Source: Microscillaceae bacterium
GTDB lineage: Bacteria > Bacteroidota > Bacteroidia > Cytophagales > Microscillaceae
Direction of reading: 5' to 3'
Assembly (NCBI GenBank): GCA_025054775.1
Contig: JANWZA010000022.1
Coordinates: forward strand, 1-64,000
DNA length: 64,000 nt
In this document: piece after piece, positions 5,273-32,857 of the stretch
Numbering within the stretch: position 1 is the first letter of the stretch
How the letters are laid out: each line of letters starts with the position of its first letter
Translations under genes and position numbers: made by a program
The notes under the pieces: generated by a model
What the model saw: the letters and a program-made list of their open reading frames with translations, nothing else
What the model was told of the DNA's origin: nothing
The model's database searches: none

Positions 5273-5425
5273 AGGAAAATTCTCTAGTTGGTAGGGCTTG
5301 GGCTTGTACCAAGAGATGGATAGCGTAAGTAGTTACTTATGGGTTAGAAATAAGCGATTAGTCCGAAAAAATACTTTACTTGTTTCTCCAAAAAAGAGCT
5401 TTACCACGATGCTTCTGTTAAAACT
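5273..5425 (+). repeat. Hairpin repeat element, copy A (strand arbitrary)
   Basis: This gene-free stretch shares several blocks with 13337-13450: GGAAAATT, then GCGATTAGTCCGAAA (5354-5368), then ACTTGTTTCTCC (5378-5389), then an A-run and TTACC...GCTT. The arms GAAATAAG (5347-5354) and CTTGTTTC (5379-5386) pair over 8 bp with one G-T pair. The second copy changes the arm yet keeps pairing. This suggests a dispersed structured element or small RNA rather than chance. Confidence 0.6.
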
Positions 5426-5475
5426 AGATCACCGTCATTTCTTGAAATCTGAAACATAAGAATATACAAAAATGA

Positions 5476-12381: not shown

Positions 12382-12798
12382 TTACTCTATTTCTATATCA
12401 AACAAACTGCTCTCTTCATTAACAAAAAGTGGTTTATAGGTCTCATTTACCACTTTTCCCAGATTGATAGGAGTAATTTTTAAGCTATTCATGAGCCACT
12501 GCTCGGCAGGGGTATAAGTAGGTGGCGTTAAATCAATATTCTCTATTCGGAGCATGTTGAGCAATTTTTGCTCTATTGTAACATGCTCCACACGTACAGG
12601 AATTTCATCAAAGGTAATGGCTTCTATTGAGAGCGTAGCCATTATCTGCAAATCCGCCTGTGTGCATTTACTATTTTTTTGTGTTTTTTTAGTTTCTTTT
12701 TCATCTTTACCCCCTGTGGCAAACGAAATATTTGCTGAAACTAACAAGGCTAAAGCCGCCACTACAAATTTCCGAAACATATTTCTAATAGTCTCCAT
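12382..12798 (-). CDS. Small exported protein of unknown function
   Basis: The chosen ATG at 12796-12798 gives 138 residues beginning METIRNMFRKFVVAALALL, a signal peptide that probably ends at NISFA. An upstream TTG would only add hydrophilic residues before the signal and is rejected. The mature protein starts with a lysine-rich stretch (KDEKETKKTQKNSK) and then an acidic, leucine/isoleucine-rich region with three similar short segments of the form L.IE.I.F.EIPV / LRIENIDLTPP / LKITPINLGKV. These may be weak internal repeats. No family is recognised. A strong terminator follows it. Confidence 0.65.
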   Translation of the reverse strand: METIRNMFRKFVVAALALLVSANISFATGGKDEKETKKTQKNSKCTQADLQIMATLSIEAITFDEIPVRVEHVTIEQKLLNMLRIENIDLTPPTYTPAEQWLMNSLKITPINLGKVVNETYKPLFVNEESSLFDIEIE

Positions 12799-13336
12799 TT
12801 TCTTATCCTGTGAAAGGTGAAACAATAAAAACATAAACTTTTTGGTCAAATTTATCTAACCCTTTGCCCCTCTGTTACAAAAGGAAGCAATTTCAAAGAA
12901 TGATTTAATTAATTAGGTAATGTTTTATCATTTTATTACACTTTGATAACGTAAAAGGGAGATTATTAGTTTACTTTTTTTTTGAAATTTTATTTCGATT
13001 ATAATTTTTAAACACGCGAAACAAAGGAAAATTCTGAATAAAAATTTTTTAATTTATATTTTTTTAAAAATAATATTTTGAAATTTTTGAAATAAATTAT
13101 ATAAAAGTTTGCTTTATAGATTTACGAAATTTTATGTAAGATTTTTCTATAAAAAATCACTTTTCGCATCATAACAATTCCAAAGAAATAAACCTATTCT
13201 TCTGTAATAAAGCTATATCCAGAAATAATACAAACCGCTAACGTCAAAATACCAAAAAGCCACCTAAACCAAAATAATCCTTAATCAGGAGAATAAGTAA
13301 GAATTTTTTATATTTTGTATAACAAAAGTGTTTAGT

Positions 13337-13450
13337 CAGGAAAATTATCAGGTAGGTAAGACTATGCTAGTAAGCTAGAAACAGGCGATTAGTCCGAAAG
13401 ACTACTTGTTTCTCCTCAAAAAGACTCTTACCGAGAAGCTTATCTTAAAT
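13337..13450 (+). repeat. Hairpin repeat element, copy B (strand arbitrary)
   Basis: GAAACAGG (13378-13385) pairs with CTTGTTTC (13405-13412). Inside, TAGTC and GACTA pair around the loop CGAAA. The blocks GCGATTAGTCCGAAA (13385-13399) and ACTTGTTTCTCC (13404-13415) are identical in copy A at 5354-5389, and the flanks are also related. Arm differences between the copies preserve pairing through G-T pairs. Confidence 0.6.
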
Positions 13451-13538
13451 ATGTTTCAGCGTAGAAATTACTACTATCGTACATTCTAAACCAACACCTA
13501 TTCTAAAAAATGAATATCTTGAAAATGTTTCCAAAGAA

Positions 13539-13570
13539 TTTGGATTTTCTGCTTTTTATGCATACCTTTG
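13539..13570 (+). promoter_or_regulatory. Bacteroidota-type promoter of the 13617 gene
   Basis: TTTG at 13539-13542 and TACCTTTG at 13563-13570 are spaced 20 bp apart, an excellent match to the -33/-7 consensus. Transcription would start near 13577, leaving about 40 bases before the ATG. Confidence 0.7.
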
Positions 13571-13616
13571 CAAGGTATAAATTCAATGTTTCATTAAATT
13601 TTAATCTTATTCAATC

Positions 13617-13895
13617 ATGGACAAAGTACAACAAGAGACTGCTGAACTTATTAAATCAGTAGCCACCAAAGCAGGCATTTCAGAAGAGCAAGCCAAAGCG
13701 GCAGTAGATACTGTGCTAGAATATGTAAAAAAATCAGGTTTGCCAGGAGTAGATACACTTAGTGAATACGCAGGAGTTGCTAAAGACACTTTGAGTAATG
13801 TAGCAAGTTCAGTAGGTAACTTTTTCAAAAGTGCTTTTGGTGGCGGAGGTAAAGAAGAACCTAAAAAAGAAACTGAGGAGAAAAAAGCGGAGTAG
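13617..13895 (+). CDS. Small helical protein of unknown function
   Basis: The 92-residue protein has no signal peptide. It reads as two or three helices (VQQETAELIKSVATKAGISE, EQAKAAVDTVLEYVKKSGLPG) and a glycine-serine stretch, and ends in a lysine/glutamate-rich tail (KEEPKKETEEKKAE). The GISEEQAKAAVDTVLEYVKKS..PG segment resembles small helical domains of the DUF2267/DUF2780 type, but I cannot place it firmly. It has a near-consensus promoter and its own terminator, so it is a single-gene unit and may be well expressed. It is probably cytoplasmic. Confidence 0.75.
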   Translation: MDKVQQETAELIKSVATKAGISEEQAKAAVDTVLEYVKKSGLPGVDTLSEYAGVAKDTLSNVASSVGNFFKSAFGGGGKEEPKKETEEKKAE

Positions 13896-13944
13896 CTATC
13901 ATATATGTAAGAAATATGTTTTTTTAGGCTTATTTGAAATTAAC

Positions 13945-14004
13945 AAACACACCTGAAAAGCAAAAAGTCTATTAGGAAAGACATGCAAAAAAGGTGTGTT
14001 TTTT
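13945..14004 (+). terminator. Terminator of the 13617 gene
   Basis: AAACACACC (13945-13953) and GGTGTGTTT (13993-14001) form a perfect 9-bp stem that runs into a T-run to 14004. The 39-base loop contains a small inner stem (GTCT / AGAC). Confidence 0.7.
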
Positions 14005-14106
14005 CATTGTCAGTATTTATTTGAGGATATAATACTTGCTTGAAATAGTTAGTTATCACTGGCTTTTTATGAAAAGCTGAGAAAGTTGTAAAAAATTTGT
14101 ATGGTG

Positions 14107-14139
14107 TTGCTCATAAATAAAAAATATTTTGTAAATTTG
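14107..14139 (+). promoter_or_regulatory. Probable promoter of the greA leader
   Basis: TTG at 14107-14109 and TAAATTTG at 14132-14139, 22 bp apart, fit the Bacteroidota consensus. The inferred start near 14146 would give a leader of about 195 bases before greA. Confidence 0.5.
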
Positions 14140-14145
14140 TAGTTA

Positions 14146-14341
14146 AAGCTAAAAAAACGATGAGCAAGTTCAACCCAAATTTGGGGGTTATTACAAGAGT
14201 TGTACTTTGGAAAGATAGTTAGATAAACACTTTTGTAGAGGAAGTGTTATTATCGAAACGGTCTTGTTCAAAGTGCCGTTTTTTTGTTTTTTTATTGGTA
14301 TTCGTGTTATTTTGTCAAAAACTAAAAAAAATTAAAAAACT
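14146..14341 (+). ncRNA. Structured leader or small RNA upstream of greA
   Basis: Between the promoter and greA there are three stems: AACCC/GGGTT near 14172-14190, AACACTT (14226-14232) with AAGTGTT (14242-14248), and AAACGG (14256-14261) with CCGTTT (14276-14281). The last runs into seven T, like an intrinsic terminator. A 20-codon frame (ATG at 14160, stop at 14220-14222) precedes the second stem. This could be an attenuated leader of greA or a separate small RNA. The function is inferred from layout only. Confidence 0.45.
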
Positions 14342-14815
14342 ATGGGAAAAGTGTCATATTATACTGTTGAAGGATTAAACAAACTAAAAGAGGAACTTCA
14401 AGATTTAACTACGCGTGGGAGAGCAGAAATAGCTCGTCAAATTGCAGAGGCACGCGAAAAGGGAGATTTGAGCGAAAATGCTGAGTATGATGCTGCTAAA
14501 GATGCGCAAGGTCTGCTTGAATTAAAGATTGCTAAATTACAAGAACTTGTCGCTAACGCGCGTTTGATAGACGAGTCCAAGATGGATACTTCTGTGGTGT
14601 CTATCTTATCCAAAGTGAAAGTTAGGAATTTGAAAATAAACAAAGAGATAAGCTATATGCTTGTATCCGAAGAGGAGGCTAACGTTAAAGAGGGCAAGAT
14701 TTCGGTGCAATCTCCTGTTGGAAAAGGGCTTTTAGGTAAACGCGTAGGCGACAAAGTTTCTATCCAAGTACCAGCAGGTTGGGTAGAGTTAGAGATTTTA
14801 GAAATTAGCCGCTAA
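14342..14815 (+). CDS. greA: Transcription elongation factor GreA
   Basis: GreA enters the secondary channel of RNA polymerase and stimulates cleavage of backtracked RNA. The 157-residue protein has the N-terminal coiled-coil domain with the acidic tip (GDLSENAEYDAAKDAQ) that positions the catalytic metal. Its C-terminal FKBP-like domain ends SPVGKGLLGKRVGDKVSIQVPAGWVELEILEI. The length is standard. A terminator-like stem lies about 60 bp upstream of the ATG, so polymerase pausing or attenuation in the leader could feed back on greA. This is an idea suggested by the sequence, not shown by it. Confidence 0.96.
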   Translation: MGKVSYYTVEGLNKLKEELQDLTTRGRAEIARQIAEAREKGDLSENAEYDAAKDAQGLLELKIAKLQELVANARLIDESKMDTSVVSILSKVKVRNLKINKEISYMLVSEEEANVKEGKISVQSPVGKGLLGKRVGDKVSIQVPAGWVELEILEISR

Positions 14816-14828
14816 ATACTAAACCAAA

Positions 14829-14861
14829 ACTACTTTCCAAGTTTTAGAAACTTGGAAAGTA
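14829..14861. terminator. Long perfect hairpin between convergent greA and the SH3 lipoprotein gene
   Basis: CTACTTTCCAAGTTT (14829-14843) and AAACTTGGAAAGTAG (14847-14861) form a perfect 15-bp stem with a 3-base loop. It serves both converging genes. It shares the TTTCCAA core with the hairpins at 44537 and 45767. Confidence 0.75.
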
Positions 14862-14887
14862 GAGTTTGAGTAGTTTTTGTGTTCCAT

Positions 14888-15841
14888 TTATGCAGGTTCA
14901 ACTTCGGGTAAGTTTAGGAATTGTCCTGAAGCCCAACCTTCAAAATTACCATAACGCACTTTATACCAAATGTTTCCACTTTCGTCTGTAGCGGTAATAT
15001 TGACAAAATCATCATTTAGTATCAAATAGACTTCCGCATTGCTTGGGATAATGGTAATGCGTTGTCCGTTTTTGTTAGGTTCTTTGCGTAATACTAAACC
15101 TGACTTAGCATTGATGGAAGCTGTAGAGAAATTGAGGTAAGCACTAAAAATATAGCCTTCGTTCTTACCATAGCGTACTTTGCACCAACTTCCGCCCAAG
15201 TCGTTAATGGTTTCAAAGTTGTCGGTATATTCCAAAATAGCCACTTCGGCATTTCTTGGGATAGTTACAATTTTTTGTCCACTCTGTTTGGGTTCTTTAC
15301 GCATGGTTAAGCCCGATTTGGCATTTACTAAGGCTTTTTGAATAGCATCTCCAAAGTTGGTTTTCACGTTATTTCCTCCTTCGGCTTCTGAGGCGGTGTT
15401 GATTTTAGTGTCATTGGTGGCTTCCAATTTGTGTCCCATTTTGAGGTACGCCCCGAAGGCATAGCCTTGATATTTGCCATATTCTACTTTGTACCAATTT
15501 CCTTTTTTGCCCTTGAGCTCATCGGCTTTGTCTTTTTCAATTACCTCTACCACTGCGTTGGCGGGTAGTACCGTAATAAGTTTTGCCTTAAAGTCAGGGG
15601 ATTTTCGCAAACTCAACCCAGACTTGGCAGTTACCACGGCATCTTTGTTGTTGCCTTCCGAAGAGGTTTTGTCTGCCTTACTCTCTCCTGCTTCGGCATC
15701 ACCTTCCTTAGATTGGGCTTTTTGTTCGGCATTGATAGGTGGTTGGTTGTTTGTGTTGTTGTTGTTACGATTACCGCCACTACCACAAGCGGTCATTAAC
15801 AAGAGTGAAGCACTTGCAAGTGCAAGCAATTCTTTTTTCAT
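14888..15841 (-). CDS. Lipoprotein with three bacterial SH3 domains
   Basis: The N-terminus is a lipoprotein signal (LLLMTAC, lipid-modified cysteine at about 19) followed by an asparagine-rich linker. Three SH3b-type repeats follow at about 70-135, 170-235 and 240-312. Each opens with (A/N)AKSGL.(L/M)RK.P, continues with a V.V(I/L).....AEV..(I/L) strand and ends in W.KV(R/E)YG...G(Y/W).(F/S)..(Y/F)L. Such repeats usually bind peptidoglycan or cell-wall peptides; no hydrolase domain is attached. The protein probably sits on the inner face of the outer membrane or on the surface. It converges with greA across a long hairpin. Confidence 0.85.
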   Translation of the reverse strand: MKKELLALASASLLLMTACGSGGNRNNNNTNNQPPINAEQKAQSKEGDAEAGESKADKTSSEGNNKDAVVTAKSGLSLRKSPDFKAKLITVLPANAVVEVIEKDKADELKGKKGNWYKVEYGKYQGYAFGAYLKMGHKLEATNDTKINTASEAEGGNNVKTNFGDAIQKALVNAKSGLTMRKEPKQSGQKIVTIPRNAEVAILEYTDNFETINDLGGSWCKVRYGKNEGYIFSAYLNFSTASINAKSGLVLRKEPNKNGQRITIIPSNAEVYLILNDDFVNITATDESGNIWYKVRYGNFEGWASGQFLNLPEVEPA

Positions 15842-16291
15842 GTTTTTGAATAAAATGTTTGAATTAAAGGTTTGAAATGATTTTTAAGTTCAAAAAACTA
15901 TGCCTTAATAAGACATAGCCCGCAAGAATGATAATGGCATTGATTATAAGAAGATATTAAATTCATTAAGCTATGCCTGCGGAATTAATTATAAGCACAT
16001 ACTTTGCTTCATTTTGGTTGATGGTGTAACTTCCATAGATTTTTTTAATAAAAGAAAGCCTAATAGTATATTTATGAAATGTTTTGTGAATACTTATAGG
16101 TGTCAAATCAGTTTAGTTAGATACTTTCTCTAAACAACAAGGGCAAATGTTATGCAAATTGAAAAAAAGCAACGAGGATTTCGCAGATTAAGGTTCTTTT
16201 GTTAATTTTGCAACTTAAAATATACCTCTCTTCCTGAGATTGGTATTATCAGATACAAATGTAAAGATTTTTTTCATTTAACCAAAAAAAG
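15842..16291. other. 450-bp divergent intergenic region upstream of secA
   Basis: No gene is seen. A secA-directed -7 box TAATTTTG lies at 16203-16210. CTATGCCTT at 15898-15906 recurs at 28637-28645 and inverted at 28806-28814. No strong hairpin was recognised. Confidence 0.4.
16203..16210 (+). promoter_or_regulatory. secA -7 box
   Basis: TAATTTTG matches TAnnTTTG and lies about 80 bp before the secA ATG. No -33 box at the right distance was recognised. Confidence 0.35.
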
Positions 16292-28827: not shown

Positions 28828-30294
28828 ATGTTTACTAAACTCAAACACAGAGAAGCAGCTTGGGAAGCTCTGCAACTGCTGAAATCCACCTCGTTTAGTA
28901 TTATTTATATCATTTTTGGATTGACTGTTGCCATCGGTTTCGTTACTAATAGCAATTTTTTTATCAATACCGATAAAGCAGGTTATATTGATGCCTTAAA
29001 TCTACTAGCCAGCCTTTTAGCAGGTATAGTAGCTACTACCTATTCTATTACCATAGTAGCTTTGCAGTTAGCTTCTACGCAGTTCTCACCCCGTGTTTTG
29101 CGTTATTTCCTTTCTAAGAATCTTTACACCCAAATTACGTTAGGAGTGTTCATGGGGTGGGTTATGTATTGTCTTTTACTTAAATTTTGGCTTATTGATT
29201 CGCTCCCAGCAGAGCAGACCACTGTTCCTGAAGAAATGATTATTTTCTTGGACATAGCAATCTATGGTTGTATTTTTCTAACTGCAGGGCTACTTCCCCA
29301 TTTCATTGTTACAATAGCTGATAATATTAACGTGGCTTCTATTGTTCGTAAAATTGCCTTACACACCATAGACGAGATTCAAGAGGCAAAACTTTTTTGG
29401 CAACATCAAGAGGAGATACCCCACCGTATACAGCACCCCCAAAAGATCGCTATTCACAGCCGTTCCTTTGGCTACTTGCAAAGCATAGACTATGAAGAGT
29501 TGCGTAAGATTAGCCTTATCAAAGGAGTAGAATTGATTGAGCAAGTACATGACGTTGGTAGTTTTGTGCAACGTGATGCTGTTTTGGTAAATGTAGTTCT
29601 ATCTGATCCTAAAATCTTCTCTTCCATAGAAAAACGTATTTTGCGTACTTGCCGTATTGATAAGTTCAGGAGTTATCACCAAGACCTCAACTTTGGCATT
29701 AGGCAATTAGTGGATATTGCTCTCAAAGCTATTTCCCCTGCTGTGAACGACCCTACTACGGCTGTTAATGCTTTGGACTATATAGGAGAAATTGCCAAGG
29801 AAATTATGCAAGCTAATATGCCTGTTTCAGGGCATACGCGCTGGAAAGGACATAACCTCTACCTTAACGAAGTGAGTTTTAAGCGAATTATAAACCAATC
29901 TTTTGACCAAATCTACCATTATGGACGTACTGACTTCGCCGTTACTGCACGCCTCTTTGATACTATTGCCAAGATAATTCCTGCTGCCCATAAAAATCAA
30001 TACCTAGAAGTTTTAGGTGATGAAATTGTAGAATTGGGCTTGGATTTTAACTATCAGTACATACAAGGTACACTTTCACAGGCTTATAGCTTTGAGCAGT
30101 TAGTACGTCTATTGAAAATCATACTGCGAGTAATAGAGAATATTCAAGAAAAGAGCAAGCAAAATCAGCAGCCGCCACTTTCACAACACTTACAGGAACG
30201 TTTATCACTTGTGGCACGAATGTGCAAACAAAGCATAGAGCACATTCAAAATTTTGATTTCCTAAAATTAAAAGCACAAACATTGCCTCCTTAA
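28828..30294 (+). CDS. DUF2254-family integral membrane protein
   Basis: The 488-residue protein matches the DUF2254 pattern. An N-terminal half has four predicted membrane helices (FSIIYIIFGLTVAIGFV, LLASLLAGIVATTYSITIVA, LGVFMGWVMYCLLLKFW, AIYGCIFLTAGLLPHFIVTI) and the conserved LQLASTQFSPRVLR. A C-terminal cytoplasmic half includes the conserved DIALKAISPAVNDPTTA. The family's function is not established. The TetR regulator lies upstream on the same strand, and the gene converges on the cas6-like gene with only 8 bp between the stops. Confidence 0.88.
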   Translation: MFTKLKHREAAWEALQLLKSTSFSIIYIIFGLTVAIGFVTNSNFFINTDKAGYIDALNLLASLLAGIVATTYSITIVALQLASTQFSPRVLRYFLSKNLYTQITLGVFMGWVMYCLLLKFWLIDSLPAEQTTVPEEMIIFLDIAIYGCIFLTAGLLPHFIVTIADNINVASIVRKIALHTIDEIQEAKLFWQHQEEIPHRIQHPQKIAIHSRSFGYLQSIDYEELRKISLIKGVELIEQVHDVGSFVQRDAVLVNVVLSDPKIFSSIEKRILRTCRIDKFRSYHQDLNFGIRQLVDIALKAISPAVNDPTTAVNALDYIGEIAKEIMQANMPVSGHTRWKGHNLYLNEVSFKRIINQSFDQIYHYGRTDFAVTARLFDTIAKIIPAAHKNQYLEVLGDEIVELGLDFNYQYIQGTLSQAYSFEQLVRLLKIILRVIENIQEKSKQNQQPPLSQHLQERLSLVARMCKQSIEHIQNFDFLKLKAQTLPP

Positions 30295-30302
30295 AAAGAA
30301 GG

Positions 30303-31103
30303 CTAACTTACCAAAAATTCTTCCAGACTATAAGAAATAGTACGATTAGAGGCTTCTGTATAAGCTACATCTAACATTCCAAAACCTTTGTGAGTACACG
30401 AACCTAAACCACATTTGTACACAAACTCTTGCACCTCTACCGCCGCGTAAAGTGTAAAGGGAAAGACATACCCGCGTAATTCATGCCGAACATTTTGTTC
30501 ATAAATAGAATAGATACGTGCAAATTTTTTGTCTTCTCGCTTAATTTTATTCAAATACTCACGATCTGGTACAACTTGAAATTTATTGAAGGAGCTAATT
30601 TGCTCTTCTGTATAAATTCCCAACTTTTCCATACGACTCATAGTTGACTCGTATAGTAAGTCAGAAAAAATATCATATTCAGGCGAAATGAACTTTTTGG
30701 CATAAAAATAATCATATACAGGATTCACTAATGCGATAGGTGAAATACACAAGTATTTCATTTCTTTGGTAAAAGTAGGCAACATCTCTTGCTCTACACT
30801 TTCAGGCAGAAGCGACAAGAGACCAATATTTATTTTTTTACGAGTGAATAAATTTTGCAAAAAAACTTTCAAAAAATGTTCATTCTCACTTGATAATACT
30901 AGAGTAACTTTTGAAGAACAAATATGCAAGCCATTCCTACTGGTGCGTGTTTGTCCCTTTAATCCTGAAAAGTGAAAATAAGGATAATTTTTATATTCAG
31001 TACTAGCAATAGTCTCTCTTATCATTTTCTCCAGCAAGTGCTGATGATAGAATGGAATACACGCCCCGCGATTATTGACCGAAAAAATAATACGAATCCT
31101 CAA
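30303..31103 (-). CDS. cas6: Solitary Cas6-family CRISPR RNA endoribonuclease homolog
   Basis: The 266-residue protein has the Cas6 layout of two ferredoxin-like RAMP domains. It opens MRIRIIFS and continues IPFYHQHLLEKMI, then FHFSGLKGQTR, then F...LF..KKINIG...LLPESVE, then MKYLCISPIALVNP. It ends with the glycine-rich loop GLGSCTHKGFGMLDV that contacts RNA. Cas6 processes CRISPR transcripts in type I and III systems. Potential catalytic residues near the N-terminus are Y19, H20 and H22; I cannot say which is used. No array and no other cas gene is in the window. The start must be the TTG at 31103 because no ATG precedes the first strand. It converges with DUF2254 and diverges from rlmD. 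Confidence 0.82.
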   Translation of the reverse strand: MRIRIIFSVNNRGACIPFYHQHLLEKMIRETIASTEYKNYPYFHFSGLKGQTRTSRNGLHICSSKVTLVLSSENEHFLKVFLQNLFTRKKINIGLLSLLPESVEQEMLPTFTKEMKYLCISPIALVNPVYDYFYAKKFISPEYDIFSDLLYESTMSRMEKLGIYTEEQISSFNKFQVVPDREYLNKIKREDKKFARIYSIYEQNVRHELRGYVFPFTLYAAVEVQEFVYKCGLGSCTHKGFGMLDVAYTEASNRTISYSLEEFLVS

Positions 31104-31438: not shown

Positions 31439-32857
31439 ATGAAAAAAATTTTAGAGCAGGTATTCATACAGGACATGGTTGCCGGTGGTAAATGCATTGC
31501 TAGAGTGAATAACAAAGTAGTTTTTGTAGAAGGTACACAATCTGCTCCGCAGGATTTGGTTGATTTGCAAGTTATTCGTTCAAAGAAAAAGTATGCCGAA
31601 GCCGTCGTAACGCACTGGCATCAACTCTCTCCTTTTAGAGTAGAACCTTTTTGCCAGCATTTTGGTACTTGTGGCGGTTGCCAATGGCAACACATAAGTT
31701 ACGAAAAACAATTAGCCTACAAGCAACAGCAAGTAATAGATAATTTGCAACGCATAGGTAAACTGGATTTACCTCCTATCCGCCCTATTATCGGTTCAAA
31801 ATCACAACGATTTTACAGAAATAAATTAGAGTTTGCTTTTTCTAACAGGCGATGGCTCACCGCACAAGAAATTCAACAAGAAATTATGCTTGAAAAAAGC
31901 AATGCCCTAGGGTTTCACCTTCCTAAACATTTTGATAAGGTATTAGATATTGAAAAGTGCTATCTCCAACCTGACCTATCTAATCAAATTCGGCTAGCAA
32001 TCAAGCAATATGCCCTTGACCACAACTTATCTTTTTTTGATATAAAAAACAAACAAGGTTTTTTGCGAAATTTACTAATACGTAACACCTTGCAAGGAGA
32101 ATGGTTGGTTTTGCTCTCTTTTTTTGAAGACAAACCCCATGAAATCGAAAAGCTACTGACCTTTGTAGCTAACACATTTCCACAAATAACCTCTTTGCTT
32201 TATGTTATCAATTCTAAAAAAAACGATACTATTCACGACTTGGAAATACACCTTTTCAAGGGCAACTCCTACATTACTGAAGAAATGCCCTGCCTATATA
32301 GTGAAAAACCCCTACAATTCAGAATTGGAGTCAAGTCTTTTTATCAAACCAACTCTGAACAGGCTTTTCAACTCTATAAGGCTGCAGCACAAATGGCTGA
32401 TTTACAAGGACACGAAATTGTATATGACCTTTACACAGGAATAGGGACAATAGCCCTGTTTGTAGCTCGCAAAGCCCAAAAAGTAATAGGTCTGGAGTAC
32501 ATACACACAGCAGTAGAAGATGCTAAAATCAATGCTCAACTTAACGGTATTGAGAATACGTATTTTTTAGCAGGAGATATCAAAGATTTGCTAACAGACC
32601 AACTATTCAAGCAATATGGTAACCCTGACGTGCTAATTACCGACCCTCCAAGAGCAGGTATGCACCCGCAAGTGGTGAAAACTATTTTGCAAGCTGAACC
32701 CTCAAAAATTGTGTATGTAAGTTGTAATCCTACTACCCAAGCCCGCGATCTAGCACTTTTAGCACAAAAATATATGGTTACTGCTGTTCAGCCTGTGGAT
32801 ATGTTTCCACACACTTCACACGTAGAAAACGTGGTTGGTTTGCAAAAAAGAACATAA
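31439..32857 (+). CDS. rlmD: 23S rRNA (uracil-C5)-methyltransferase, RlmD type
   Basis: The enzyme methylates a uridine of 23S rRNA (U1939 for RlmD) at carbon 5. The 472-residue protein has an N-terminal TRAM RNA-binding domain, an iron-sulfur segment with cysteines in FCQHFGTCGGCQW, and a C-terminal methyltransferase domain. That domain carries the SAM motif DLYTGIGTIALFVA, the DPPRAGMHPQVV loop and the catalytic cysteine in VYVSCNPTTQARDL. The exact uridine cannot be read from sequence, since TrmA/RlmD paralogs are similar and some do two sites. The folP gene follows by about 50 bp on the same strand. Confidence 0.92.
   Translation: MKKILEQVFIQDMVAGGKCIARVNNKVVFVEGTQSAPQDLVDLQVIRSKKKYAEAVVTHWHQLSPFRVEPFCQHFGTCGGCQWQHISYEKQLAYKQQQVIDNLQRIGKLDLPPIRPIIGSKSQRFYRNKLEFAFSNRRWLTAQEIQQEIMLEKSNALGFHLPKHFDKVLDIEKCYLQPDLSNQIRLAIKQYALDHNLSFFDIKNKQGFLRNLLIRNTLQGEWLVLLSFFEDKPHEIEKLLTFVANTFPQITSLLYVINSKKNDTIHDLEIHLFKGNSYITEEMPCLYSEKPLQFRIGVKSFYQTNSEQAFQLYKAAAQMADLQGHEIVYDLYTGIGTIALFVARKAQKVIGLEYIHTAVEDAKINAQLNGIENTYFLAGDIKDLLTDQLFKQYGNPDVLITDPPRAGMHPQVVKTILQAEPSKIVYVSCNPTTQARDLALLAQKYMVTAVQPVDMFPHTSHVENVVGLQKRT

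Follow-up and report, generated by a model that had tools for sequence, protein, structure and literature searches.

A solo Cas6 family of the Cytophagales conserved irrespective of CRISPR and lacking the catalytic-histidine segment

We found that a solo Cas6-family gene, located in a 64-kb stretch of DNA from a Microscillaceae genome (64,000 nucleotides, hereafter the window), is conserved across the order Cytophagales irrespective of CRISPR, is inherited vertically and is under strong purifying selection. The explanation that we favour, and hold to be fairly probable, is that a family of solo Cas6 proteins specific to this order broke away from CRISPR early in the Cytophagales and was exapted as a cellular RNA-binding protein, probably a non-cleaving one. 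From its fold, motifs and neighbours, we infer that the solo protein binds RNA, leaves it uncut and may be linked to translation. The original prediction had raised recruitment away from CRISPR as one option, and this part is well supported by order-wide conservation independent of CRISPR together with housekeeping-like synteny and selection.

Most known cases in which CRISPR parts were exapted involve guide RNAs or several cas genes retained together. In the present case, one RNA-processing subunit on its own, devoid of its catalytic segment, appears to have turned into a core gene in much of the order. If true, this would show a route from an immune RNA-processing fold to a housekeeping RNA-binding protein, and the solo protein is a directly testable candidate RNA-binding factor in Cytophagales. 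We found no description of the solo family in the open-access literature searched. The accessible part of a review of CRISPR exaptation does not mention the family. Nor is Cas6 named anywhere in a survey of isolated cas loci, which counts only loci with at least three cas genes.

The window gene is an intact open reading frame with a TTG start (Table 1). The start codon was GTG or TTG in 97 of 111 family members, and GTG in 44/44 of a Cyclobacteriaceae-rich set. Pfam placed the protein in Cas_Cas6_C (60.4 bits; cut-off 23), with the N-terminal Cas6_I-A model matching below threshold. The AlphaFold (AF2) model, built with 36 orthologues as input, reached a pTM of 0.90, and the top Foldseek matches were Cas6 structures. 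Together with the Pfam match, these results bear out the full-length, two-RAMP-domain Cas6 protein that had been predicted, as well as its C-terminal glycine-rich loop (GLG-x5-GFGM), the glycines of which were present in at least 98% of 111 members. No match to Cas6b (PF17955/PF17262) was obtained for the window protein. Its score with the NCBIfam cas6 model TIGR01877 (48.2 bits, E=1.7e-12) lay below the curated cut-off of 58.65 bits, which several orthologues passed; annotators should therefore be aware that CRISPR-free genomes may receive a Cas6 label. The convergent/divergent setting of the gene was also as described: a convergent DUF2254 membrane-protein gene lies downstream and ends at 30294, 8 bp from the end of solo cas6, and a divergent RNA uracil-methyltransferase gene starts at 31439 on the other side.

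Table 1. Solo cas6 and the conserved motifs of its product, in window coordinates
Feature	Position	Strand	Evidence
Solo Cas6-family gene, 266 aa	30303..31103	-	ORF; Pfam Cas_Cas6_C, E=4.1e-16; AF2 pLDDT 94; Foldseek matches to Cas6
PF-x-HQ motif (PFYHQ here), residues 17-21, start of helix 1	31041..31055	-	P17, F18, H20, Q21 in at least 98% of 111 members
Short loop following helix 1, residues 32-42; site of the catalytic-histidine segment in CRISPR Cas6	30978..31010	-	Spacing comparison; PfuCas6 His46 falls in gap
FSGLKGQ motif, residues 45-51	30951..30971	-	F45, S46, K49, G50, Q51 in at least 98% of members
Family-specific segment PDREYLNKIKREDKKFARIY, residues 179-198	30510..30569	-	P179, D180, Y183, K192, K193, F194, R196, Y198 in at least 98% of members
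Glycine-rich loop GLGSCTHKGFGM, residues 232-243, RAMP signature	30375..30410	-	G232, G234, G240, G242, M243 in at least 98% of members

All 111 members lacked the segment with the canonical catalytic histidine, leaving a Cas6 fold without this segment, as in Cas6nc. The distance from the helix-1 HQ motif to the FSxLKG strand was 19-28 residues in the 111 distinct solo proteins, and this stretch never contained LH. The CRISPR-locus Cas6 proteins of the same order (n=10) have 38-41 residues from the helix-1 start motif to the FS/FG strand, and in 8/10 of them this stretch includes a histidine directly preceded by L, V or I. The catalytic triad of PfuCas6 consists of Tyr31, His46 and Lys52 (PMC3652601); profile alignment placed His46 opposite a gap of the solo profile, and the triad positions were absent or unconserved in the solo family. 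The earlier statement that the gene bears no sign of decay thus holds for the reading frame, which is intact, but not for this segment.

On these sequence comparisons, the solo family is probably non-cleaving. Sulfolobus Cas6 is able to cleave although its active site has no histidine (PMC3652601), so loss of the histidine in the solo family is no proof of lost cleavage. An active stand-alone endoribonuclease, acting on cellular RNA through a rebuilt non-canonical site (e.g. H20, K49, K192/K193, R196 or R210), would accord with the invariant histidine and basic residues of the family, whose invariant positions include H20, K49, K192, K193, R196 and R210, and with the two Sulfolobus Cas6 paralogues that cleave with neither a general acid nor a general base. 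We regard this reading as unlikely, given that the PfuCas6 triad positions are missing or unconserved and that the closest matches to the fold include non-catalytic Cas6nc besides active Cas6. Since no member of the family has the catalytic-histidine segment, the stand-alone endoribonuclease originally suggested is doubtful.

Among known proteins, PhCas6nc (PH0350, PDB 3QJJ) and PfuCas6nc (PDB 3UFC), described as non-catalytic or inactive RNA binders, gave the best or near-best sequence and fold matches. The Cas6nc proteins share only ~20% identity with the solo protein, are archaeal and were studied with CRISPR repeat RNA, whereas the solo family is not linked to CRISPR and is distinguished by a conserved segment at residues 179-198. 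The PDxxYLxKI part of this segment had no equivalent in the aligned CRISPR Cas6 proteins. Catalytic PfuCas6 (PDB 3I4H, 3PKM) resembles the solo protein in its two-RAMP fold and glycine-rich loop, with TM-scores of 0.65-0.81. Within the order, the Cas6 proteins of type I loci (e.g. L068, L174, L175) contain Cas_Cas6_C and Cas6_I-A domains and are homologous to the solo protein over its full length; they differ in lying beside cas genes and arrays, in their longer stretch from helix 1 to FS and in their side of the tree. In that tree, the solo family stood on one side of a branch and the CRISPR-locus Cas6 proteins on the other, with 96/96 support, long branches and an unsure root. Cas6b (PF17955/PF17262) belongs to the Cas6 superfamily and occurs in several carrier genomes, yet forms a separate family within their type III loci.

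One arrangement of interest was a pair of tandem Cas6 genes in genome G053 (L067 7138-8630), of which only the first has the catalytic-histidine segment. The second gene (L067:7962-8630; 25 residues in the shortened stretch) encodes the CRISPR-locus protein nearest to the solo clade in the tree, a placement made unsure by its very long branch. Unlike the solo gene, it lies within a cas locus and adjoins a full-length Cas6. The pair is a possible intermediate towards solo Cas6.

The original prediction of no CRISPR array and no other cas genes held for the 64-kb window but not for the genome. Contig C6 of the same genome harbours a CRISPR locus of type II-C, made up of cas9, cas1, cas2 and an array, the names cas9 and cas2 being assigned from open reading frames and gene order. 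In the array, a 36-nt repeat, AATGTAAAAAACTTTTTTTTGTAATCAAATCACAAC, recurs at least 17 times, separated by spacers of ~30 nt; this array was the only one found in a search of the window and fetched stretches of the genome. The C6 cas9 (L073 12796-16133) is divided between two frames that overlap (12796-13794 and 13743-16133), owing either to an error in sequencing or to disruption of the gene. In type II systems, crRNA maturation depends on RNase III and tracrRNA, not on Cas6.

Searches of this genome with models for RAMP (PF03787), Cas3 HD (PF18019), Cas6 (TIGR01877) and Cas6b (PF17262) returned no effector gene, no Cas6b and no second Cas6. A distant type I/III system, considered as a client, was rejected on these searches, and the reading of the gene as a component detached from a complete type I/III system lacking cas6 is likewise unsupported. 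In this genome, in which the one system found is type II-C, the gene is neither encoded with nor needed by an array that has an effector of type I, III or IV. Since the sole array found is type II-C and neither Cas3 nor RAMP genes were detected, the proposed service to a distant array in trans has no support in this genome.

The distribution of the gene was examined in several genome sets. Single full-length orthologues were present in 37 of 57 relatives, the source genome included, mostly at 44-55% identity, and the weak extra matches in this set were a few CRISPR-type Cas6 proteins. Among 292 Cytophagales genomes drawn, 133 contained the gene as a long open frame, and these carriers cover twelve taxonomic families. 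In the profile search, family members scored at least 262 bits and the next match 75 bits, a gap which shows that the solo family is sharply bounded; a diverged copy in the gene-less families was rejected, as no profile match fell between 75 and 262 bits. None of the 133 carriers belonged to families f11 and f13, and the absence of the gene from entire families of the order indicates that it is not essential to lifestyle. In a phylum draw of 392 genomes, the gene was found in Cytophagales only (0 of ~377 genomes outside the order). A scan of GTDB species genomes yielded 400 relatives; the names among the 80 matches listed were those of Cytophagales and their members or of unspecified Bacteroidetes, with the genera Algoriphagus, Cyclobacterium, Echinicola, Cesiribacter and Marivirga.

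Presence of the gene did not follow presence of CRISPR. The adaptation gene cas1 was absent in 62/133 carriers, and 49 cas1-positive genomes lacked the solo gene. The two genes showed a mild positive association (odds ratio 2.6, uncorrected for phylogeny), which is probably due to shared phylogeny. Seven of the 37 closely examined carriers (G018, G028, G030, G032, G034, G046, G047) contained no Cas1, RAMP, Cas3, Cas6b or second Cas6. Eight further carriers (G000, G015, G020, G022, G033, G044, G048, G055) contained only a low-scoring type II-like Cas1, the type II call being made from the Cas1 score, with the locus checked in G000 only. No Cas6-requiring system was therefore seen in 15/37 examined carriers. 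These counts bear on a further explanation, in which the protein is a resident crRNA-processing Cas6 acting in trans for type III/I systems that come and go. The mild cas1 association would fit such a role, as would two fragmented genomes (G004 and G006) with RAMP genes and no other Cas6 found. We nevertheless consider it improbable: no client was seen in the 15 carriers, the source genome is type II-C only, and the catalytic segment is missing. Moreover, 5/7 type III genomes that initially seemed to depend on the solo gene encode their own Cas6b, and selection of YchF strength, described below, is unexpected for an accessory immune gene. As a separate observation, the arrays at L159, L164, L166 and L170 (G017, G036, G049 and G006; all with type III genes) have common repeats of the form ...GGATTGCGAC in one orientation.

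The gene order around solo cas6 was recurrent: a PUR-like protein, an AI-2E-type transporter, ychF and solo cas6, followed on the opposite strand by DUF5103-like and ABC-F-like genes, these neighbour names coming from reading cluster sequences and not from a family search. The ychF cluster was found in 88/120 loci and PUR in 79/120, a set in which 80 named loci over-represent Cyclobacteriaceae and overlap slightly with the remainder. Immediately adjoining ychF was seen in 12/36 order-wide loci (window excluded). The conservation of the gene and its neighbours had been put forward for examination in the original prediction; at the window copy, the ychF neighbourhood has been lost.

Protein distances of solo Cas6 tracked those of YchF (Mantel r=0.85, with 0/999 permutations as high). 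Between close species, the median dN/dS was 0.03 for solo cas6 versus 0.023 for YchF. Fourfold-degenerate sites were more conserved in solo cas6 than in ychF in 11/12 pairs, which suggests high expression of solo cas6. These selection results contradict the idea that the gene is a leftover of a vanished CRISPR system and in decay. Such a remnant would agree with the source genome having no Cas6-dependent system left, and is scarcely credible given a dN/dS of ~0.03 and a long open frame in 133 carriers of twelve taxonomic families.

Under the exaptation that we favour, Cas6 would have detached from CRISPR early in the Cytophagales and then been kept as a chromosomal gene, often beside ychF. By analogy with archaeal Cas6nc and repeat RNA, the cleft that separates the two RAMP domains of the solo protein may bind one particular stretch of cellular RNA, and the protein would hold, protect or present the bound RNA instead of cutting it. 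The ancestral neighbours YchF, the PUR-like protein and the ABC-F-like ATPase weakly suggest a link to translation. A broader version, which we put forward only tentatively, is that the exapted Cas6, acting jointly with its ychF/PUR/ABC-F neighbourhood, is an abundant global RNA-binding protein wholly outside immunity, an RNA chaperone or translation regulator with an Hfq- or ProQ-like role.

Hairpins of the window (5347-5386 and 13378-13412) had also been proposed as a substrate, to be processed or bound by solo Cas6. Both belong to one dispersed repeat of ~170 bp that can form a hairpin and whose core, GCGATTAGTCCGAAA, is conserved (window 5274-5456 and 13342-13493); further copies lie in L181, L182, L184, L185, L186, L191, L194 and L196, making at least 10 in the source genome. 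Rfam gave no match anywhere in the window. Membership of one multicopy family is in keeping with a shared substrate, yet the ~2.1 Mb of loci searched contained no copy beyond those of the source genome, with none in the loci of related genomes, and the protein is conserved order-wide. Because the repeat was seen in its own genome only, the hairpins are unlikely to be the conserved ligand of the family; this candidate was rejected, and we consider its chance of being correct very small.

The first ten codons of solo cas6 were unusually conserved (excess codon identity 0.38 in the Cyclobacteriaceae-rich set). A conserved RNA element at the 5' end of the gene was rejected as the cause, as ychF, ferredoxin and PUR showed a like trend (0.21-0.27), and we therefore read this conservation as a translation-start constraint. 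Upstream of ychF, ~40 codons at the 3' end of the AI-2E-type transporter gene (L101-L158, Cyclobacteriaceae-rich) had unusually conserved synonymous sites, with an excess of up to 0.38, and this stretch is perhaps a regulatory element for ychF.
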